From Flammeovirgaceae bacterium (lineage in GTDB: Bacteria; Bacteroidota; Bacteroidia; Cytophagales; Cyclobacteriaceae), in the NCBI GenBank assembly GCA_015180985.1, contig CP054185.1, forward strand, positions 1,054,001-1,118,000: a DNA stretch of 64,000 nt. Reading direction: 5' to 3'. Below, piece by piece: positions 6,955-47,607 of the stretch. The notes under the pieces are model-generated. The model was not told where the DNA came from, made no database searches, and was given only the letters and a program-made list of their open reading frames with translations. Within the stretch, counting starts at the first letter, position 1; every line of letters begins with the position of its first letter. A program made the translations under genes and the position numbers.

Positions 6955-7053
6955 TAACCACAAAAGGCCACTAAAGTACACACAAAGAACACGAAGGATT
7001 ATTGACCTAATTCTTGGTGACCTTTGTGCCTTCTCTGTGATACTTTGTGGTTA
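6955..7053. repeat. Imperfect long inverted repeat in intergenic spacer
   Basis: The arms TAACCACAAA (6955 on) and TTTGTGGTTA (ending 7053) are perfect, and the similarity continues inward for roughly 30 bp as CACAAAG-type words. This is a MITE-like or intergenic repeat; no transposase is present. Confidence 0.6.
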
Positions 7054-7111
7054 GCTTGATTTTAGCATGGCTTTTAATTGCCAGAAAGTTTTATAACTAA
7101 CCGCTTGTACT

Positions 7112-7672
7112 ATGATAAAGAAAATTCTGCTCGGCTTTGGTGTACTTATCATCATTATTGCCGGTTATGTCGGTTACCTGATGCTCACCACCAAAAATCA
7201 CAGTCCGGCAGCCGTGGCTGAATTCCGTGACGGTGATTTTCTGATCCAGGTAAACTATTCGCAGCCCTACAAAAAAGGCCGGCTTATTTTTGGCACCGAA
7301 GCTGAAGGGGCGCTGGTGCCGTATGGAATGAAATGGCGGACCGGGGCCAATGAAGCTACCGAAATCAGTTTCAGTGGCGATGTGTTGGTGGATGGCAAAT
7401 TGCTGAAGGCCGGCCGGTATTCGGTATACACCATTCCGGATGCTGCCGTGTGGACGATTGCCTTCAACAGCAAACTGGGTTACTGGGGCAAAGGGTTTGG
7501 CGATGTGTTCGATGAATCGCTGGATGTGCTCCGTGCAGTTGCCAGCGTACAAAACGATTTACCCGAGGTGGAGCAGTTCACCATTTCATTCGCTCCATCA
7601 GACAGCCTGATTAACATGCACTTTTCGTGGGATAAAACACGTGCCACACTGCCCATTCAGCGGGTTCAATAA
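7112..7672 (+). CDS. DUF2911 family membrane-anchored protein
   Basis: This 186-residue protein has an uncleaved-looking N-terminal membrane segment (ILLGFGVLIIIIAGYVGYL), then the DUF2911 (PF11138) pattern: VNYSQPYKKGR, IFG, VPYGMKWRTGANEAT, LLKAGRYSVYTIP and AVWTIAFNS. The family is common in Bacteroidota, is exported and has no assigned activity. The domain is complete; only the anchor, in place of a cleavable signal, is notable. It converges with the thioesterase gene, whose stop begins one base after this gene ends. Confidence 0.85.
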   Translation: MIKKILLGFGVLIIIIAGYVGYLMLTTKNHSPAAVAEFRDGDFLIQVNYSQPYKKGRLIFGTEAEGALVPYGMKWRTGANEATEISFSGDVLVDGKLLKAGRYSVYTIPDAAVWTIAFNSKLGYWGKGFGDVFDESLDVLRAVASVQNDLPEVEQFTISFAPSDSLINMHFSWDKTRATLPIQRVQ

Positions 7673-8095
7673 TCAGGTATTTTCAAAGCGCTCAATGGCC
7701 TTTCGCTGTTCTTCGGGAATGGCGATGGTTTGTTCGTGTGCGTAATCGTAGCACACCAGCACGGCAATGCCTTGCGCAACAACTTCTTCGGTGCCGGATT
7801 TTTCGCGCACAACAACCCAATCGAGCGTGAGGCTTTTATTGCCGATGCGCGAGCAGCGCGTGTACACGGCAATGGTATCGTGTAAAAACACGGGTGACTT
7901 GTAATCAATTTCAATCCGTGCCAGAATAATTCCAACTTGCTGGCTCCACTTCTTATCGGTGCTCACCACATCTTCAAAATACTTTACCCGCGCCAGTTCA
8001 ATGTAGGTAAGGTAGTTGGCGTTGTTCACATGACCCATTTTGTCAATGTCTTTAAAGCGCAGCTGGATGGGGAATTTGTGTTTGAACGGGTGCAT
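7673..8095 (-). CDS. Acyl-CoA thioesterase, 4-hydroxybenzoyl-CoA (hot-dog) family
   Basis: This 140-residue protein is the usual length for a single hot-dog fold. The N-terminal motif RFKDIDKMGHVNNANYLTY contains the catalytic Asp and the HVNNxxY loop of the YbgC/FadM-type thioesterases, followed by the helix IELARVKYFE. It should hydrolyse short or medium acyl-CoA thioesters in the cytosol. Its neighbours give no pathway clue. Confidence 0.88.
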   Translation of the reverse strand: MHPFKHKFPIQLRFKDIDKMGHVNNANYLTYIELARVKYFEDVVSTDKKWSQQVGIILARIEIDYKSPVFLHDTIAVYTRCSRIGNKSLTLDWVVVREKSGTEEVVAQGIAVLVCYDYAHEQTIAIPEEQRKAIERFENT

Positions 8096-8125
8096 GGGTT
8101 AAGGGTGTGTTTTAAAAGTCGGGCG

Positions 8126-8770
8126 TTATGGATTTTCTTCTCTGAACATAGTAAGATATACTTTGCTTGCCTTAATCATAGTGGCAGTTATGTCGGTCCA
8201 GGAAACTTCTTTCAGCATATCGGGCATAACAGATTGATTTGCTTGCGCTGCTTTTACCTCCGACAATGCAAAAATTAACGACTTTGGCGAAAGAAGCGGA
8301 TCATACTCCTTGAACTGCGCCAAAAGTTGATTGATTCCCAAGGCTGAAAAGAGGAAATAGAGGTCGATGTAATCTTTTTTTTCGCGTCTGCCGGTAATAG
8401 CGCTGAGTTTGAACGCGGTCAGATCGGTAAGTGAGGCCAGCCGGAGTCCCTCCGCTTCAACAGCGGGAGTTTTGAAAGGCATCAGCCAATGGTCATATAA
8501 CTCAACTTTCAATCCGCTTATCTCTGCCTGAATGCGATCGGGCGACACAAAAAAAACTGTTTCTTTGAATTGATTTGCTAAAATTTTCCGAAGGCTTGCT
8601 TTATTGGTTTTTTGGTTGGAGAAGAGGTCAATATCAACTGACTTGCGGTGGCCAAGTTGGAGGGCAATGGCAGTGCCTCCGGCCATCCGGAAGGAAGCCA
8701 GTTCGGGAACAGCGCACAATTTTCTGGCGGTTTCCAGTAGTTGCGGTGTTACGGTTTCCTTAAACAGCAT
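8126..8770 (-). CDS. AbiEii/AbiGii-type nucleotidyltransferase toxin
   Basis: This 214-residue protein starts at MLFKETVTP (ATG 8770), 11 bp inside the upstream gene; a longer in-frame start at 8794 overlaps it further. The nucleotidyltransferase signature is visible: RMAGGTAIALQLGHR then KSVDIDLFS, the GG...(D/E)xD core that binds metal and NTP. Later it has a KxDYxD-like element (RREKKDYIDLYFLF). AbiE-type toxins transfer nucleotides onto RNA acceptors and are blocked by a partner gene. The overlap with the small upstream gene supports a toxin-antitoxin operon; the target is unknown. Confidence 0.85.
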   Translation of the reverse strand: MLFKETVTPQLLETARKLCAVPELASFRMAGGTAIALQLGHRKSVDIDLFSNQKTNKASLRKILANQFKETVFFVSPDRIQAEISGLKVELYDHWLMPFKTPAVEAEGLRLASLTDLTAFKLSAITGRREKKDYIDLYFLFSALGINQLLAQFKEYDPLLSPKSLIFALSEVKAAQANQSVMPDMLKEVSWTDITATMIKASKVYLTMFREENP

Positions 8771-39822: not shown

Positions 39823-40638
39823 ATGCTGCAACAGGTTAAGGAAGCAACCGATTTTATCAAACACAGAATTAACGCCAAGCCCGAAGTGGGCATTATTCTG
39901 GGCACCGGATTGGGCAATCGGTTTGTTGAATCCATCCGAAAGCCAGTCATTATTAACTACAATGCCATACCGCATTTTCCCATTACAACCGTTGCAACCC
40001 ATAAGGGGCAACTGGTAGTTGGAGAAGTAAGCGGGAAGCACGTCATCACCATGCGGGGCCGGCTACACTACTACGAAGGCTATAGCATGCACCAGATTGC
40101 CCTGCCCATACGGGTAATGAAGATGCTGGGAGTAAAAGTTTTGCTGATTTCGAATGCAGCCGGAAATCTAAATCCTGCCTGGAAGAAAGGTGAGTTGATG
40201 CTGCTGAACGATCACATTAACTTAATGCCCGATAATCCGCTGCGGGGAGAAAACTATGAAATATTCGGGCCGCGCTTTCCGGATATGAGTGAACCGTATT
40301 CAGCCAACCTGCAGAAAAAACTGCTTGCCATTGCCGCAAAGAAAAAAATAAAATTACGTCCGGGAGTTTATGCTGCTGTACAGGGACCTTCGCTGGAGAC
40401 CCGTGCCGAATACCGTTACCTGCGCACCATCGGAGCCGATGCCGTGGGCATGAGCACCGTGCCCGAGGTGCTTACTGCCCAACATGCCGGCATAACGTGT
40501 TGTGCCGTATCGGTACTTACCAACGAGTGTAACCCCGACAAAGGTTCGGTTGTGAAACTGGAAAACATTGTGTCGGTTGCAGGCAGAGCCGAGAAGCACC
40601 TGGTTACGTTGTTTACGGAACTGATTGCGGCACTCTGA
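39823..40638 (+). CDS. Purine nucleoside phosphorylase 1 (trimeric PNP type)
   Basis: This 271-residue protein has the hallmarks of the trimeric PNP/MTAP class: phosphate loop GTGLG (27-31), MRGRLHYYEGY, LISNAAGNLNPAW, QGPSLETRAEYRYLRTIGADAVGMSTVPE (split) and SVLTNECNP. Asn234 in LTN aligns with human PNP Asn243, which reads 6-oxopurines, so inosine and guanosine are the expected substrates. It is followed 11 bp later by a close paralogue. Confidence 0.92.
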   Translation: MLQQVKEATDFIKHRINAKPEVGIILGTGLGNRFVESIRKPVIINYNAIPHFPITTVATHKGQLVVGEVSGKHVITMRGRLHYYEGYSMHQIALPIRVMKMLGVKVLLISNAAGNLNPAWKKGELMLLNDHINLMPDNPLRGENYEIFGPRFPDMSEPYSANLQKKLLAIAAKKKIKLRPGVYAAVQGPSLETRAEYRYLRTIGADAVGMSTVPEVLTAQHAGITCCAVSVLTNECNPDKGSVVKLENIVSVAGRAEKHLVTLFTELIAAL

Positions 40639-40649
40639 AAATTTAATTC

Positions 40650-41465
40650 ATGATTAAAGAAATTAACCAGGCTGTTGAGTTTTTAAAGAAGCGCGGAATT
40701 GACGCACCCGAAGTTGGCGTGATTCTCGGAACAGGTTTGGGAAATTTGTTTGTAGAGGAGATCAAATCAGTTGTGGCCATACCGTACAACTCCATACCAC
40801 ATTTCCCGATTTCAACCGTTGAGTTTCATAAAGGCCGGCTTATTTACGGAAAGGTGAAGGGCAAAAAAGTGCTGGCCATGCAGGGCAGGTTTCACTATTA
40901 TGAGGGATATGATCTGCGACAGATAACATTGCCCGTTCGGGTATTGAGGTTGCTTGGCATAAAGTACCTGCTCATATCCAATGCGGCCGGCAACCTGAAT
41001 CCGAAGTGGAGTAAAGGACAGCTCATGCTGCTGGATGATCACATCAACCTGTTGCCCGATAACCCGCTGCGGGGAGAGAATTTCGAGATGTTCGGTCCGC
41101 GCTTCCCCGACATGAGCCAACCTTATTCAAAAAAACTGAACACTAAACTCAAACGGATTGCCCGTGCGAAAAAGATAAAACTTAATGAAGGCGTTTATGC
41201 GGCAGTTCCGGGGCCCAATCTGGAGACCCGTGCCGAGTACCGCTTCTTGCGCACCATCGGTGCGGATGCCGTGGGCATGAGCACCATACCCGAAGTTATT
41301 GTGGCCAACCACATGGGCCTGCCCTGCTGCGCCATTTCAGTACTCACCGATGACTGCGACCCGGATAATTTACAGCCGGTTGACCTGGCCACCATTGTGA
41401 AGGTAGCCGGCAAGGCTGAACCGAAACTGACGGAATTGTATGTGGAGTTGATACATGCTATTTGA
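40650..41465 (+). CDS. Purine nucleoside phosphorylase 2, Asp at base-recognition site
   Basis: This 271-residue protein is a tandem paralogue of pnp1 with the same motif order (GTGLG, MQGRFHYYEGY, LISNAAGNLNP, GPNLETRAEYRFLRT, GMSTIPE). It differs at the base-recognition loop: SVLTDDCDP with Asp234 where pnp1 has Asn234. In the wider family Asp there favours 6-aminopurines, as in MTAP and the human N243D mutant, so adenosine or methylthioadenosine is a possible substrate. The last 134 bp (41319-41452) are repeated exactly beyond the HipBST genes, and its tail (ELIHAI) differs from the tail of that copy (ELIPLL). Confidence 0.9.
   Translation: MIKEINQAVEFLKKRGIDAPEVGVILGTGLGNLFVEEIKSVVAIPYNSIPHFPISTVEFHKGRLIYGKVKGKKVLAMQGRFHYYEGYDLRQITLPVRVLRLLGIKYLLISNAAGNLNPKWSKGQLMLLDDHINLLPDNPLRGENFEMFGPRFPDMSQPYSKKLNTKLKRIARAKKIKLNEGVYAAVPGPNLETRAEYRFLRTIGADAVGMSTIPEVIVANHMGLPCCAISVLTDDCDPDNLQPVDLATIVKVAGKAEPKLTELYVELIHAI
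41319..41452 (+). repeat. Direct repeat L flanking HipBST (3' end of pnp2)
   Basis: 134 bp are identical to 43112-43245. With a 3-bp mismatch the similarity extends further left over CCACATG. The copy at this position lies within the functional pnp2. Confidence 0.95.
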
Positions 41466-41492
41466 TTTCTTTATTACTGCTAAAGCAATAAT

Positions 41493-41516
41493 TGGCAATA
41501 ATAATTGCCATTTTTT
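41493..41516 (+). terminator. AT-rich terminator after pnp2
   Basis: TGGCAAT-AATA-ATTGCCA is followed by six T, 27 bp after the pnp2 stop. Confidence 0.75.
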
Positions 41517-41530
41517 GTATGAGAACGTTA

Positions 41531-41556
41531 TTAATTACTGTTATAGAAGTAATTAA
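41531..41556 (+). promoter_or_regulatory. HipB operator candidate O1
   Basis: A palindrome TTAATTACT-N8-AGTAATTAA has core GTTATAGA. The core CTGTTATAG is shared, in reverse orientation, with O2. HipB-type regulators are known to bind such spaced palindromes. Confidence 0.55.
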
Positions 41557-41594
41557 GTCTAAAAAATCAATCTAATTGTTTTTATTATTATAAT

Positions 41595-41617
41595 TTTACT
41601 ACTATAACAGTAGTAAA
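41595..41617 (+). promoter_or_regulatory. HipB operator candidate O2
   Basis: A perfect palindrome TTTACTAC-N7-GTAGTAAA with core TATAACA ends two bases before the hipB ATG, suited to block transcription or initiation. Confidence 0.6.
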
Positions 41618-41619
41618 TT

Positions 41620-41853
41620 ATGATAAAACAGCCGGAATTAGGGAAGATAATTCGTTTTCATCGAAAGAAATCAGGGCTCTCTCAGGCTGACTTCGCCCGG
41701 ATGATTGGTGTTGGAAAAACGGTGATATACGATTTGGAGAAAGGGAAAGAAACGATTCAGCTGAACACCCTGAATAAAGTTCTGATAGGATTAAATATTT
41801 CCGTGCAGTTAAACAGTCAATTGATGGATGAGTACAGGAATGCGAGCCGTTAA
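41620..41853 (+). CDS. hipB: HipB-type XRE antitoxin/repressor
   Basis: This 77-residue protein is a Cro/C1-type helix-turn-helix (LGKIIRFHRKKSGLSQADFARMIGVGKT, split; VIYDLEKGKETIQLNTL). It is the DNA-binding member of a HipBST operon and should repress it through the two palindromes just upstream. It lacks the longer C-terminal tail of E. coli HipB. Its 3' end overlaps hipS by 26 bp, so the three genes are translationally coupled. The AT-rich promoter contrasts with the flanking pnp DNA. Confidence 0.88.
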   Translation: MIKQPELGKIIRFHRKKSGLSQADFARMIGVGKTVIYDLEKGKETIQLNTLNKVLIGLNISVQLNSQLMDEYRNASR

Positions 41854-42151
41854 CGTCTATATAAACGATCAATTAGCCGGGCGTTTACAGGAGACGGACG
41901 ACCATCAATATATTTTTGAATATGAACCAAATTATACCGGCCTGCCCGTTTCGTTAACCTTGCCGCTTTCGCAGCGCGTTTTTCACTTCAACTCATTTCC
42001 TGCATTTTTTGATGGGCTGCTACCTGAAGGCCCGCAACTGGAAGGCTTGCTGAAGCAACGTAAACTCGATCGCGATGATTATCTGTCGCAATTGACTGCT
42101 GTAGGCAACGATATGGCCGGGGTGGTAACGGTTAAAGAAAGTGAACCATGA
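41828..42151 (+). CDS. hipS: HipS-like protein (HipA N-terminal subdomain)
   Basis: This 107-residue protein (a second ATG 12 bases in, at 41840, is equally possible) matches the HipA N-subdomain-1 fold (couple_hipA): VNVYINDQLAGRLQ, FEYEPNYTGLPVSLTLPL, FPAFFDGLLPEGPQLEGLL and DRDDYLSQLTAVGNDMAG. In the HipBST systems described from E. coli O127 this free-standing subdomain is the actual antitoxin that binds the kinase HipT. It overlaps hipT by four bases (ATGA). Confidence 0.88.
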   Translation: MSTGMRAVNVYINDQLAGRLQETDDHQYIFEYEPNYTGLPVSLTLPLSQRVFHFNSFPAFFDGLLPEGPQLEGLLKQRKLDRDDYLSQLTAVGNDMAGVVTVKESEP

Positions 42152-43080
42152 ATCGTTGTCCGATTACGTATGTTCTATGTGGTGATTTGAAATATTCGCC
42201 AGAAGGACTCCGGATGTTATCGCCCCGCCTCACTCAACTGAACGATTTTCCTTATACAAAAGAAGAGCAAGTTCGTGAAGCAATTGCGCGTGCATCGAAG
42301 ATATCAATTCAGGGAGTGCAACCTAAACTGAGTGCAAAACTTAATGTTTCAAAGGCCGTATTTGAGGTGGTTGATGTTGGTGGCATGTTTATTATTAAAC
42401 CGCAACAGGATTATTACCCGGAACTCCCTGAAAATGAAGATCTGACCATGCGCCTGGCGGCAATTGCAGGCATTGATACCCCTTTGCATGGAATGGTATA
42501 TTGTGCGGATGGCTCACGCTCATATTTCATCAAACGCTTCGATCGGTTACCGAGAGGTAAAAAAGTGCCTGTTGAGGATTTTGCACAACTGAGCGGCAAT
42601 ACGCGCGAAACTAAGTACCGGGCTTCTATGGAAAAGGTCGCTGGGTTGATTGATCAATTTTGCACCTTTCCGATTGTGGAGAAATTGAAACTTTTCCGGA
42701 TTACGTTGTTCAGTTTTTTGTGCGGCAACGAGGACATGCATTTAAAAAACTTTTCGCTAATCAGGCGCAATGGAAAAATTGAATTGTCACCAGCTTACGA
42801 TTTGGTTAACTCCACCATCGCCTTGCCAAATGCAACAGAAGAATTGGCCTTGCCCCTTGCGGGCAAAAAAAGCAAAATTGACCTAAAGCTGCTGGCCGAT
42901 TTTTATGGAAAAGAAAAACTTGCCTTGAACAATAAGATAGTTGAAGAGGAGTTGGAAAAATTTAGAAGTGTACGCAAAAAATGGGAGGACATGATTACCA
43001 TCAGTTTTCTCTCAGAACCCATGAAAGGAAAATATCAGGCGGTTGTAGACGAACGCTTTAAGCGACTTTTTAATGATTAG
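42148..43080 (+). CDS. hipT: HipT-like serine/threonine kinase toxin
   Basis: This 310-residue protein is a short HipA-type kinase lacking the N-subdomain. The Gly-rich loop is KISIQGVQPKLS (Ser53, Ile54, Gln55), with the autophosphorylated position expected at Ser53; E. coli HipT has SIS here, so this is a SIQ variant. The catalytic motif is GNEDMHLKN (Asp196), and the metal motif is AYDLVN (Asp218). The target of E. coli HipT is tryptophanyl-tRNA synthetase; the target here is unknown. All catalytic residues appear intact, so it should be an active toxin. Confidence 0.9.
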   Translation: MNRCPITYVLCGDLKYSPEGLRMLSPRLTQLNDFPYTKEEQVREAIARASKISIQGVQPKLSAKLNVSKAVFEVVDVGGMFIIKPQQDYYPELPENEDLTMRLAAIAGIDTPLHGMVYCADGSRSYFIKRFDRLPRGKKVPVEDFAQLSGNTRETKYRASMEKVAGLIDQFCTFPIVEKLKLFRITLFSFLCGNEDMHLKNFSLIRRNGKIELSPAYDLVNSTIALPNATEELALPLAGKKSKIDLKLLADFYGKEKLALNNKIVEEELEKFRSVRKKWEDMITISFLSEPMKGKYQAVVDERFKRLFND

Positions 43081-43101
43081 TAATACCGGAAGAGACAGCA
43101 C

Positions 43102-43258
43102 CCACATGAAGCTGCCCTGCTGCGCCATTTCAGTACTCACCGATGACTGCGACCCGGATAATTTACAGCCGGTTGACCTGGCCACCATTGTGAAGGTAGC
43201 CGGCAAGGCTGAACCGAAACTGACGGAATTGTATGTGGAGTTGATTCCGTTGTTGTAA
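43102..43258 (+). pseudogene. 3' remnant of pnp2 beyond the HipBST insertion
   Basis: A truncated copy encodes HMKLPCCAISVLTDDCDPD to LTELYVELIPLL and a stop, in the same orientation as pnp2. Bases 43112-43245 are identical to 41319-41452. Left of the repeat the sequence resembles pnp2 only over CCACATG. It has no usable start and is best read as the displaced original end of pnp2. Confidence 0.85.
43112..43245 (+). repeat. Direct repeat R flanking HipBST
   Basis: 134 bp with no mismatches to 41319-41452. Perfect identity implies recent duplication or ongoing gene conversion. Confidence 0.95.
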
Positions 43259-43259
43259 G

Positions 43260-44693
43260 TCAGTTCTTGATTACTTCTTTAAGATACTCCATCACCGGGT
43301 CGCGGCCCGAAACCTTATCAGCTGGTTCCGAAACGATTTCCACATCGGGTTTGACACCGCGAAGGGTGTCATCGCTGCACGGATGAATAAATTTTTTATA
43401 GCTGCAACCGGCAGCTAACCCGGTATTGGGCAATTGAATAGGAATAACATCGCCAAATGCGATAAGAACTCCGCCCGTTTCTTCACCAATAACGGTACCC
43501 ATGTTGTAACATTTAAACGCATCGGCAAGCATATTGGCGCTTGAGAAGGTGTAATGGCTCACCAGTAAATATGTTTGGCCTTTGAATTTTAGCGACTCGT
43601 TTTTTGGTTTGATCAGTTTTTTCATTTCAACCACCTGGATTTTACCCGGTTTTCCGAACGCATAAAGGCGGGCTTGCTTATTAAAAACAGCAACGGGCAT
43701 AAGCGGGTACATATACCATTTAACATAGCGCTGGCGAAAATAGTGTTTCATTTCTTTGCTGGCTTTTACTTCCATCCGGTCAACCTGGCGGTATGGTTTA
43801 TCGGTTATGTAATTAAAGAGCAGGTCGCCCAATTGCGAGTTGCCGCCACCGTTGTTGCGAATGTCGATGGCCAGGTGCTGAATGGTTTCGTTGCGGATAA
43901 CCTGAAAAGCCGAATCCAGAAACCGGGCGAAACGTTTTTTATCCGTCATCGAACGAAAATCAATAATTGCAAACCTTTCCGGAGTAATGGTGAGGGAATA
44001 GGGTTTGGCATTTTGGTTTACCAATCGATGAAGAGCCGCAGCCTGAAATTGTGCTGAGGTAATTCCCTCAACGTATTTCCTAACGGGCAGATCATTTATA
44101 ACCAATTCAAGATCATAGCTATCAGCATATCCCAAAACATACCACAGCAGGCTTCTGAACGATCGCTGGATGCGTATATCCCGGTAAAAATCCAGTTCAG
44201 CACTTACATACGGCCGCAGTTGATTGAGTAATTCAGGTGTGCGCAATCCGTTTATCGAAATAACTTCAACTACTCCCGTTAAGGTTGAGTCGCTGCTGTA
44301 ATTAGTCGTGATATACAGCCGGTTGTTGCGAATGAGCACGTCAAACGGAAATACCTTGCCGCCTTGTTTCAAAAATTCACTGCGTTCCTCCTGCGGAAAA
44401 TAAACTGATGTGTGTCCATCGCCCAAGGCCGTTGTTAACGGAATGAGTTTTCTTGCAAATTCAAGACGGGTAATCGGCTCAGTGAGCCCCAGTTCCAGTG
44501 CTTCAACATCCTGGTAAAATTTTTCCTTTGAAGTAGCGGCATACAGGTTGGGATGGATGTTCTCCAGTGTGCTAACCAAAAAGCGGAGGTCGGTTTTCAG
44601 TTCATCCGGAGAGTAAAGTTTTTGGGTAATATCAACCTGACCAGGTAGCAGGGTTGAATTCAGCAGTAAACACAGGGTTAAGGCTCTCTGCAT
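43260..44693 (-). CDS. Secreted S41 family C-terminal processing peptidase
   Basis: This protein has 477 residues from MQRALTLCLLL (44693), giving a signal peptide ending at LLPGQ; the longer in-frame start at 44780 lies in the uvrA 3' end. The S41 core is visible: IDIRNNGGGNSQLGDLL, then YLLVSHYTFSSANMLADAF with the nucleophile Ser, and GEETGGVLIAFGD. A PDZ-like segment (GVVEVISINGLRTPELL) lies before it. It should cleave proteins in the periplasm. Confidence 0.88.
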   Translation of the reverse strand: MQRALTLCLLLNSTLLPGQVDITQKLYSPDELKTDLRFLVSTLENIHPNLYAATSKEKFYQDVEALELGLTEPITRLEFARKLIPLTTALGDGHTSVYFPQEERSEFLKQGGKVFPFDVLIRNNRLYITTNYSSDSTLTGVVEVISINGLRTPELLNQLRPYVSAELDFYRDIRIQRSFRSLLWYVLGYADSYDLELVINDLPVRKYVEGITSAQFQAAALHRLVNQNAKPYSLTITPERFAIIDFRSMTDKKRFARFLDSAFQVIRNETIQHLAIDIRNNGGGNSQLGDLLFNYITDKPYRQVDRMEVKASKEMKHYFRQRYVKWYMYPLMPVAVFNKQARLYAFGKPGKIQVVEMKKLIKPKNESLKFKGQTYLLVSHYTFSSANMLADAFKCYNMGTVIGEETGGVLIAFGDVIPIQLPNTGLAAGCSYKKFIHPCSDDTLRGVKPDVEIVSEPADKVSGRDPVMEYLKEVIKN

Positions 44694-44769
44694 AAAACCA
44701 ATTTTAAACCCTACAGACTTACGCCTGAACGGATGGTTGCTTCTGGGGTTAATGCTTTTGGTGATACAG

Positions 44770-47607
44770 TCAACCGCCAATCTTTTTTCGCAAAAATTCA
44801 GCGGTATAGCTGCCTTTAGCTTTCTTTATCATATCCTCGGGCGTTCCGGCAAACAGCAAGTGCCCGCCTTTTTTCTCGCCTCCTTCCGGCCCCAGGTCAA
44901 TAATCCAGTCGGCACATTTTATTACTTCCAGGTTGTGCTCAATAACAAGTACCGTGTGCCCCTGATCCACAAGGGCATTGATGGCTTTTAACAATTTGGC
45001 GATGTCATGAAAATGGAGGCCGGTGGTGGGTTCATCGAAGATGAACAGGATCTGGCCGTCCGGTGAATTTTTGCCTAAAAAAGAAGCCAGCTTTACGCGC
45101 TGCGCCTCGCCACCGCTCAGCGTATTGGACGACTGACCGAGTTTTACATAGCCCATGCCCACATCGAAGAGCGGCTGAATTTTTTCGTGGATCGACTTTT
45201 TGTCTTTAAAGAATTCAAGCGCTTCTTCCACCGTCATATCCAGCACATCGGCTATGCTTTTGCCGTTGTAATCAACCTCCAGTATTTCCTGTTTAAAGCG
45301 CTTGCCCTGGCACGATTCGCATTTCAGAAAAATGTCGGCCATGAACTGCATCTCTACTTTTATTTCGCCTTCGCCTTCGCAGGTTTCGCACCGGCCACCC
45401 TCTACGTTAAATGAAAAGTGTGCGGGTTTGTAGCCACGCTGTTTCGATAACGGTTGCTCCGAATACAACTGGCGGATGGCATCGTAGGCCTTAACATAGG
45501 AGATGGGATTAGAACGGGAAGATTTTCCAATCGGGTCCTGGTCAACAAATTCAACCTGGGTGACGCGGGTTATATCGCCTTCCAGTTTATCGTATTTACC
45601 GGGTGTTTCGGCAACTGATCCGTTCATCCTGCCCAGGGCGGGGTAGAGTATCTTTTTCACCAGCGTTGATTTACCGGAACCGCTTACACCGGTAACCACA
45701 GTAAGCACGCCAAGCGGAAATTTTACCGTCAGGTTTTTCAGGTTATTTTCGCGAGCGCCAACAACGCTGATCGAATCTTTCCATTTTCTGCGCCTGGCCG
45801 GCACTTCAATTTTATCTTTTCCGGTTAAGTAGTTGGTAGTGTGCGAGACCACTTTTCCATTAAGTTCCTTCAGCGATCCCTGAAAAACGAGTTGCCCGCC
45901 ATGCGTACCTGCATCGGGCCCGATGTCAATAAGCTGATCGGCTGCACGCATGATTTCTTCCTCGTGTTCAACCACAATTACGGTGTTGCCCAGGTTGCGC
46001 AGCGATTTGAGTACTTCTACCATCCGGCTGGTGTCGCGCGGGTGCAGGCCGATGCTGGGCTCGTCCATAATGTACATGGAGCCCACCAGTGCACTACCCA
46101 GCGAGGTGGCCAGTTTTATCCGTTGGTACTCGCCACCTGAAAGCGTTGAGCTTAAACGGTTTAACGTCAAGTAGCCGAGACCGACCTTTACCAAATAGTC
46201 CAGGCGCGTTTTTATTTCAGTAAGAATTCTATCCGAAATCTTCTGTTCAAAATCTGAGAGTTTTAGTTTGTCAAAAAAAACGGCAACATCCTCAACGGGC
46301 ATCAGCACCAGATCGGTAATGGAGGTGCCGGCAATTTTTACATACTGGGCGTCTTTGCGAAGGCGGGTGCCTTTGCAGTCGGGGCAGGTGGTTCTTCCGC
46401 GGTAGCGCGACAGCATAACCCGGTATTGGATTTTATGAAGTTTGGATTCAACGTATCTGAAAAAACCGTTAATGCCATCGAAATATTCGTTGCCGGTCCA
46501 AAGAAGTTCCTGTTCCTTTTTGGTTAATTCATTATAGGGCCGGTGTATCGGAAAATTGAATTTGATACCGTGTTTCAGCAAAGGTTTTACCCATTCGCTC
46601 ATGGCTTCGCTGCGCCAGGGGGCTACGGCCCCCTCATAAACCGAAAGTGATTTATCGGGTATAACCAGGTCTTCGTCAATGCCGAGGATTTTACCAAACC
46701 CCTCGCAGGTGCGGCAGGCGCCATACGGGTTATTGAAACTGAAAAAATTAACCGAAGGCTCAGTGAATTTTATACCGTCCAGTTCAAAACGATCGGAAAA
46801 ATGCAGTGGGTTTTGTCCTTCGACATGTATCACGCACTCGTCATGTCCTTCGTAAAAAGCCGTTTGAACCGAATCGCCCAGGCGATACACAGTGTCATCA
46901 TCATTGGGGTTTACGGCCAGGCGATCAATGAGGATGTGAAGATTCCCCTCACCCCCGGCCCCTCTCCCCAGGGAGAGGGGAGCTTTGATTAGATCTTCAA
47001 TGAAGTTGGGTTCGCCATCAATCAACACCCTTGCAAAGCCTTTGCTCAACAGCAGGTTTAGTTCTTCTTTTAGTTTTTTGCCCTTCTTCAACGGCAGCGG
47101 TGCAGCAATCATCACCCGCGTTCCGGGTGCCAGGGCGTTAATGGTGTTCACCACATCAGTAACCGAATCGCGCTTCACTTCTTTTCCGCTAACGGGCGAA
47201 TATGTTTTGCCAATGCGGGCAAAGAGCAGTTTCAGGTAATCGTACACCTCGGTAGTGGTGCCTACGGTTGATCGCGGATTGCGGGTATTTACCTTTTGTT
47301 CGATGGCAATGGCGGGCGAAACGCCACGGATGTAATCCACATCGGGTTTTTCCATCCGGCCGAGAAACTGGCGGGCGTAGGCGCTGAGGCTTTCCACGTA
47401 CATCCGTTGCCCTTCGGCAAACAGCGTATCAAAAGCCAGCGAAGATTTGCCGGAGCCCGATAAGCCGGTAATAACCACCAGCTTGTTTCGTGGAATAGCA
47501 ACACTCAGGTTTTTCAGGTTATTTACGCGTGCCCGTTTGATGATGATGTAATCCCTGGGATCGAGGGAATCAAGTTCAGAATCGGATAAAACAGGCTTCG
47601 GGGGCAC
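44770..47607 (-). CDS. uvrA: Excinuclease ABC subunit A, with translated palindromic repeat
   Basis: This 945-residue damage-recognition ATPase of nucleotide excision repair has two ABC modules: Walker [10 protein letters not shown] (near 48) and GVSGSGKST, signatures LSGGEYQRI and LSGGEAQRV, and zinc fingers [16 protein letters not shown] and [17 protein letters not shown]. It starts at GTG 47607. Between Walker A and the signature of the first module, residues about 209-222 ([14 protein letters not shown]) are encoded by a GC-rich palindromic repeat element. The frame is preserved. Confidence 0.96.
46945..46983 (-). repeat. Palindromic repeat element inside uvrA coding sequence
   Basis: CCCCTCACCCCCGG is followed by CCCCTCTCCC-CA-GGGAGAGGGG (perfect 10-bp stem). 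The same element family stands at 22889-22925 between the tRNAs. In uvrA it is read as [12 protein letters not shown]. Confidence 0.85.

Follow-up and report, generated by a model that had tools for sequence, protein, structure and literature searches.

A HipBST toxin-antitoxin module between identical copies of a pnp2 gene end: a probable case of one-sided homologous capture

How chromosomal toxin-antitoxin modules move without a transposase, an integrase or a phage is, in our judgement, a standing question. Insertion of restriction-modification (R-M) systems with long target duplication was reportedly described by Nobusato et al. in 2000. Long target duplications of such systems are reported in the accessible parts of PMC3874152, PMC3031569 and PMC4978471. 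An experiment in E. coli used DNA with homology to the lacZ end: 56 of 60 clones yielded a polymerase chain reaction product of the duplication type, and 14 sequenced clones carried duplications of 109–950 bp. The authors explained these by trimming and re-circularisation of the molecule followed by one crossover, and they assigned 4/60 clones to homology-facilitated illegitimate recombination (HFIR) (PMC3240628, in its accessible sections). For modules of the type VI secretion system (T6SS), the accessible text of PMC5361080 proposes HFIR-like events as a putative mechanism by which old genes are displaced. The HipBST modules of Legionella have three evenly spaced HipB operators and they too have poorly conserved neighbourhoods, and the portion of that paper at hand makes no mention of a gene-end duplication (PMC10653801). 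In this work we have analysed a 64-kb stretch of the chromosome of a Flammeovirgaceae bacterium (the window), in which identical 3'-end copies of the purine nucleoside phosphorylase gene pnp2 flank a HipBST module made of hipB, hipS and hipT. We propose that the module was probably acquired by one-sided homologous capture, through a crossover in the pnp2 end and one illegitimate joint, from a relative with HipBST behind its pnp2.

Our results show that the three genes lie, as an earlier note on this DNA had claimed, between copies of the pnp2 end that are identical at 134/134 positions (41319–41452 and 43112–43245, + strand, offset 1793). This exact repeat, with 260 bits, tops the direct repeats found in the window at spacings of 300–6000 bp. 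The second strongest, at 146 bits and 74%, is the paralogy of pnp2 with its tandem neighbour pnp1 (39823–40638, + strand; purine nucleoside phosphorylase, PF01048, NF006054), which is old, the two genes sharing 72–74% DNA identity across their aligned parts. The left copy, positions 670–803 of the coding sequence, completes an intact pnp2 of 271 aa (40650–41465, + strand; an open reading frame (ORF) with PF01048 and NF006054 family matches) that ends in ELIHAI. Its last three codons and stop (HAI, 41453–41465, + strand) are unlike the PLL or RLL found in the right copy and in the congeners G011 and G005, restore the native length of 271 aa, and would be the start of the imported segment; by eye this tail is nearest to that of another congener, G008 (LINAI and stop). 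The right copy is a pnp2 3' remnant with the tail ELI-PLL and a stop (43246–43258, + strand), which runs on into the flank of an S41 peptidase-family gene as in G011 and G005; it is seen as a 61-aa ORF (43073–43258) that starts within hipT. The edge of homology at 41319 is not sharp. Both copies are preceded by the 7-mer CCACATG (41309–41315 and 43102–43108), a single differing codon, pnp2 codon 223, stands between this 7-mer and the exact run (GGC, Gly, on the left; AAG, Lys, on the right), and in the 13 nt ahead of the run the two sides agree at 9 positions. A false assembly join is an unlikely source of the repeat, since the window is part of one complete contig of 3.38 Mb.

What follows pnp2 in related genomes? 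Counting that of the window itself, our genus sample held 17 genomes; 16 of the 17 match the region, and the pnp2 locus was read in 15 relatives (in G010 on two contigs, with the break inside pnp2). The gap between pnp2 and uvrA is vacant in four of them (G014, G006, G001, G015), holds an S41 gene in four others (G005, G011, G007, G010), and holds HipBST in three (G008, G012, G002), which have neither an S41 gene nor a second pnp2 end at this locus. In G003, G009 and G004 uvrA was not seen after pnp2 in the stretch read. The gap of G016 is filled by a 393-aa gene without a Pfam match (L033, 6152–7333), which from its look we take to be PHP-like; G016 is the closest relative of the HipBST-positive G008 in the compared core genes, yet it has this other gene in the gap. 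The duplicated arrangement occurs in 0/15 congeners. The empty site that the earlier note had proposed to look for exists in G011 and G005, where a single pnp2 end with the tail ELIRLL runs into the same S41 gene, and because their pnp2 ends continue into this flank, the right copy in the window is the displaced original end, with the old tail that had been supposed for it. A single genus thus gives an unusually complete series: an empty site, two other cassettes, a module without a scar, and a module with a fresh duplication.

The event had also been called recent on the strength of the perfect repeat. This holds relative to the nearest relative, as the copies differ at 0/134 positions and the same segment differs from G011 at 15/134 (the left copy matches G011 at 119/134 and G008 at 103/134), but perfect identity alone is no proof of youth, because gene conversion could preserve it. 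Perfect repeats would likewise be expected if the whole region had been duplicated in tandem and then partly deleted, with HipBST not imported in the same event, and the pnp1/pnp2 pair shows that the locus tolerates duplication. Such a history would require several events, however. The tails are not the same, and the flanks point to different relatives, the outer one to the S41 type and the inner one to the HipBST type, so that we regard this history as very improbable.

Taken by itself, the module has the look of an ordinary HipBST. All three genes are on the + strand, open, overlapping and matched to their families, in the gene order with a split HipA N-domain: hipB (41620–41853; 77 aa, helix-turn-helix (HTH), PF01381, with TIGR03070 as best NCBIfam match at 68.9 bits, slightly below the cut-off of 71.65), hipS (41843–42151; 102 aa, a HipA N-terminal-domain protein, PF13657, TIGR03071; its start is taken as 41843, where the automatic ORF list has 41828 and 107 aa) and hipT (42148–43080; 310 aa, a HipA_C kinase, PF07804, with a Gly-rich loop of the SIQ type). 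Among solved structures, HipT is closest to HipT(Lp) (8ezr, 7vkb, 7wcf; E ~1e-106), and it also matches the PDB chains 7ab3–7ab5 (E ~1e-25), presumably those of the E. coli HipBST. The SIQ loop defines a HipT group named in an eLife study (PMC10627512, accessible part). Upstream of hipB there are three operator-like palindromes on the + strand: the first at 41474–41491, 8 nt after the pnp2 stop, the second 61 nt further on at 41535–41552, within inverted repeat I1, and the third another 61 nt on at 41596–41613, directly before hipB. They are the three best matches in the window to a consensus typed by hand from the loci that were read. Once settled, the module would be predicted to behave ordinarily, with the HipB complex repressing its own operators and HipS blocking the HipT kinase.

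The palindromes lie 8, 69 and 130 nt after the pnp2 stop in the window, and 8/68/129, 9/70/131 and 5/66/127 nt after it in G008, G012 and G002, respectively. In the HipBST tree the window's module groups with those of these three genomes, apart from the other family modules included (ultrafast bootstrap (UFBoot) 87), and the branching among the four agrees with core-gene distances. The earlier note had envisaged a de novo insertion into a fresh target, and in that form this is not supported: HipBST of the same clade is already present, without duplication, in the same gap of 3/15 congeners. With the same gap, the same clade and the same operator offsets, the tail that the note took for new looks most like a pnp2 tail linked to HipBST, which came in from a pnp2-HipBST donor. 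The actual donor would be outside our sample, since hipT of the window shares just 65–69% DNA identity with the three pnp2-linked modules.

The same gap appears to have exchanged its content in another genome. G005 is nearest to the HipBST-positive G002 in uvrA and ggt, yet its S41 gene shares 88.5% identity with that of the window, whereas its uvrA is 77% and its other genes here 69–81% identical (L026, 4560–6801). Ninety-six diagnostic pnp2 sites separate the window's clade from G002 and G001. Up to position 768, G005 has its own clade's type at 75 of these, the window's type at 8 and neither at 7, and its last six sites (777 and 805–813) are all of the window-clade type, with the S41 gene behind them; the switch after 768 places the crossover within the last ~45 nt of pnp2. 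Near this end G005, G002, G011 and the window share the 14-mer TATGTGGAGTTGAT, and the 134-bp repeat stops at its final base. Apparently the S41 gene and the pnp2 tail of G005 came from the window's lineage through the pnp2 end, and from these comparisons the pnp2–uvrA gap is seen as a place where cassettes are swapped by way of that end, G005 being a second such event.

This mobility of S41 also lends something to an explanation in the reverse direction, in which a lineage with the order pnp2-HAI-HipBST-uvrA would have gained a 134-bp pnp2 end together with S41, by an illegitimate joint behind hipT and a homologous one in uvrA; the HipBST grouping, concordant with core-gene distances as under vertical descent, is in its favour as well. 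Nevertheless, the nearest relatives of the window, G011 and G010 (the latter on its split contigs), have S41 right behind pnp2 and no HipBST, and the window's S41 gene diverges from that of G011 much as the neighbouring genes do (83.3% against 80.0–87.9% identity). A foreign S41 segment should moreover have come with a diverged pnp2 end, and the copies are identical. We therefore hold this direction to be doubtful, and with nearest relatives that are S41-positive, HipBST is the likelier newcomer of the two.

No recombinase gene was visible in the insert, as the earlier note had also found: its + strand ORFs of at least 60 aa are hipB, hipS, hipT and the pnp2 remnant ORF and nothing else, and four antisense ORFs that were tested had no Pfam match. 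Nor does the insert have a terminal inverted repeat, the single strong inverted repeat there being an operator pair. Both absences speak against a mobile element that uses a recombinase of its own or one borrowed from elsewhere (a transposon, an integron cassette or an integrative element at a gene 3' end), as do the matches of HipT, which hits 0 of 50,697 phage records (E 1e-10) and 7 plasmid records (E 1e-40), each at less than 60% identity. Gene 3' ends are common integration targets, and this counts for such an element. So does L111, a locus from our scan of other HipBST modules (see below), whose repeat-flanked copy (6979–8154) adjoins a TrbI conjugation gene and for that reason may sit in a conjugative element. 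In Legionella, a predicted recombinase/integrase neighbour co-occurs with 75% of the HipBST systems (PMC10653801, accessible part). Taken together, we consider a mobile element of this kind extremely unlikely here.

Between the hipT stop and the right copy lies the putative illegitimate joint, 31 nt on the + strand (43081–43111) that end in CCACATG-AAG and read as a Lys allele of pnp2 (HMK). Lys at this codon is also found in G007 and in 1/30 family loci, so AAG is a natural pnp2 variant; standing before the right copy, it may mark a trimmed donor end. In our own-genome search, 30 nt of the joint occurred a single time, with no second place within 3 mismatches. We considered as its source, and rejected, the 3' ends of uvrA downstream of hipT in G008, G002 and G012, as by eye they show no resemblance. 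Beyond the right copy is the S41 gene (43260–44780, − strand, PF03572), the resident neighbour at the empty site, with 83.3% DNA identity to G011. Further on, a 25-bp repeat within uvrA (45729–45753 and 47505–47529, 96% identical) probably reflects its two ATPase halves.

We propose that a recipient with the order pnp2-S41-uvrA took up DNA of a near relative with HipBST behind pnp2. The incoming piece would have held the pnp2 3' end with its HAI tail, the three HipB operators, hipB, hipS and hipT, and some 31 nt beyond them. The pnp2 end would have anchored it by homology, while its far end would have met no homology, the recipient having S41 where the HipBST type has uvrA, and would have been joined illegitimately. 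Two routes could be taken: the piece may have been trimmed, re-circularised and integrated by one crossover of the Campbell type, or its linear end may have been joined directly, as in HFIR. By either route an intact pnp2 with the donor's tail would come to stand before HipBST, and the recipient's own end would be pushed behind it as the 134-bp repeat. The circle route would also account for the Lys codon that borders the right copy on its inner side, which would then be the trimmed end of the donor's pnp2. The copies would then be hybrids, donor-like in the left tail (HAI), possibly so at the right inner Lys, and identical over the 134 bp in the middle, which would call for either gene conversion or near-identity of donor and recipient in this segment.

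Several points weigh against this capture. A donor as distant as G008 would have brought 31 differences into the 134 bp, so a close donor outside the sample must be assumed, or else a crossover in the last bases of the repeat or conversion of the copies. No near-identical donor module was found among the modules compared, the best HipT being 70% identical, and neither the own-genome search nor the comparison by eye with uvrA 3' ends identified the source of the 31-nt joint. The UFBoot support of 87 is moderate, the homology of the 13-nt tail to G008 is merely suggestive, and the 8 scattered window-type sites before the breakpoint of G005 leave the history of that exchange not perfectly clean.

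Do other HipBST modules lie beside duplicated gene ends? Such loci exist, as the earlier note had suggested one should look for. The best 80 of 468 confirmed loci from a scan of a genome collection were examined; all 80 hold hipB, hipS and hipT, and only three adjoin pnp2. For a gene-bounded repeat test we started from 114 loci, located 110 modules, kept 104 non-redundant ones and used the 93 with flanks of 600 bp, the window being excluded. Rows dropped from the other repeat comparisons comprised L180 (left flank missing, an artefact), L184 (no right flank), L156 and L172 (the same modules as L130 and L147) and L127, L143 and L144 (too short to give a result). Direct repeats of at least 30 bits within 600 bp on both sides flank 12 of the 93 modules, compared with 8 of 236 gene-bounded control blocks drawn from these loci; the Fisher p value of 0.0022 is nominal, because the controls share loci and are not independent. 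Against random blocks, at the same threshold, the figures were 9/68 HipBST loci and 6/883 blocks, so the stricter gene-bounded control weakens the enrichment. The top match among the controls, L112, is a repeated intergenic motif.

Six of the 12 repeat-flanked loci have the repeat at or near the 3' end of an ORF (L161, L141, L147, L178, L111 and L091), in L111 37 nt and in L091 148 nt inside the stop; the genes are histone-H1-like (Hc1), umuD-like (Peptidase_S24), the TrbI conjugation gene and an unnamed ORF. L141, L147 and L178 represent one umuD-like site in three genomes and may not be independent. At this site HipBST stands at the umuD-like 3' end and 36–50 bp remnants of that end are on the far side; the empty-site relatives were read by eye, and, also by eye, L141 has between operator and remnant a piece that looks like the end of a different HTH antitoxin gene. 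In L161 a HipBST of the Flavobacterium group lies between 56-bp, 98% identical H1-like 3' ends (737–792 and 2501–2556). L181 (G577) has a similar H1-like fragment left of HipBST, with none seen in the first 90 nt to the right. Three more of the 12 are hairpin- or REP-like, judged partly by eye (L130, L159, L135). The repeats of L130 (5078–5141/6965–7028) and L135 (5234–5268/6936–6970) can form hairpins and are not gene ends; they are possibly repetitive extragenic palindromic (REP) elements or terminators. The last three (L134, L139, L098) are of no clear type. L183 is probably a decaying module, in which the HipT homologue soon runs into an in-frame stop (aligned residue 68) and tblastn gave no hipB; in L158 the stop that had been listed is the terminal one. 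The pattern of repeats supports, without proving, the idea that gene ends are frequent sites of HipBST settlement and are duplicated in the process.

These loci bear on the alternative closest to the earlier note, a long target duplication as in R-M genes, in which the HipBST core would have entered an empty pnp2 end, duplicated 134 bp and met a new stop by chance. The single-copy empty site with its long perfect duplication fits this, as do the R-M systems reported with target duplications of ~100 bp (PMC3874152, accessible part), the enrichment of flanking repeats at HipBST loci, and Flavobacterium, where in many pairs of copies from different places the likeness hardly extends past the first operator on one side and the hipT stop on the other. 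It must be set against these that HipBST of the same clade already occupies the pnp2–uvrA gap in three congeners, and that a fresh insertion would hardly reproduce the conserved operator offsets from the pnp2 stop. In our view this alternative is unlikely, though worth keeping in mind, and homologous capture through the pnp2 end is preferred.

At a more tentative level, and with confidence well below even, we suggest that HipBST cores (first operator to hipT stop, ~1.6 kb) might be mobile units without a transposase, which would latch onto conserved gene 3' ends via host recombination, repeatedly duplicate those ends, and be losable again by recombination between the copies. The ends that can be cited for this are pnp2, the umuD-like and histone-H1-like genes in Flavobacterium, and two genes in loci with Proteobacteria and Deltaproteobacteria titles. 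In the accessible parts of the literature on HipBST, target duplication and illegitimate recombination we found no report of HipBST with duplicated gene ends. The new part looks to be a well-resolved natural capture at a gene end without a visible recombinase, the HipBST itself being ordinary, and the capture model yields a testable prediction about the joint.

How does this locus compare with described systems? With the HipBST of E. coli O127 and Legionella the window's module shares three overlapping genes, an HTH HipB, a HipA-N-like HipS and a HipA_C kinase HipT of the SIQ loop group, and with that of Legionella also the three evenly spaced operator-like sites; it differs from both in adjoining a duplicated host gene end. 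The R-M insertions resemble it as selfish modules with a one-copy empty site, a direct repeat of ~100 bp and no visible transposase. In contrast to them, however, congeners have the module at this very locus, and it seems to bring its pnp2 tail along, so that the homology to the target was probably borne by the donor. The pairing of a homologous with an illegitimate junction in classical HFIR would fit here, but it predicts a deletion and here there is a duplication. The lacZ experiment comes near in that homology to one gene end led to duplication of that end, with the joint elsewhere on the incoming molecule, and the 134-bp repeat would fit the range of duplications seen there, although that was a laboratory plasmid construct and this is a natural chromosomal locus. 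Finally, at the T6SS/Rhs loci, as far as the accessible text of PMC5361080 goes, a module likewise enters via upstream homology and displaces the old gene end or immunity gene to a downstream position; there the effector itself varies, whereas here the module travels as a passenger and it is a housekeeping gene that has its end replaced.

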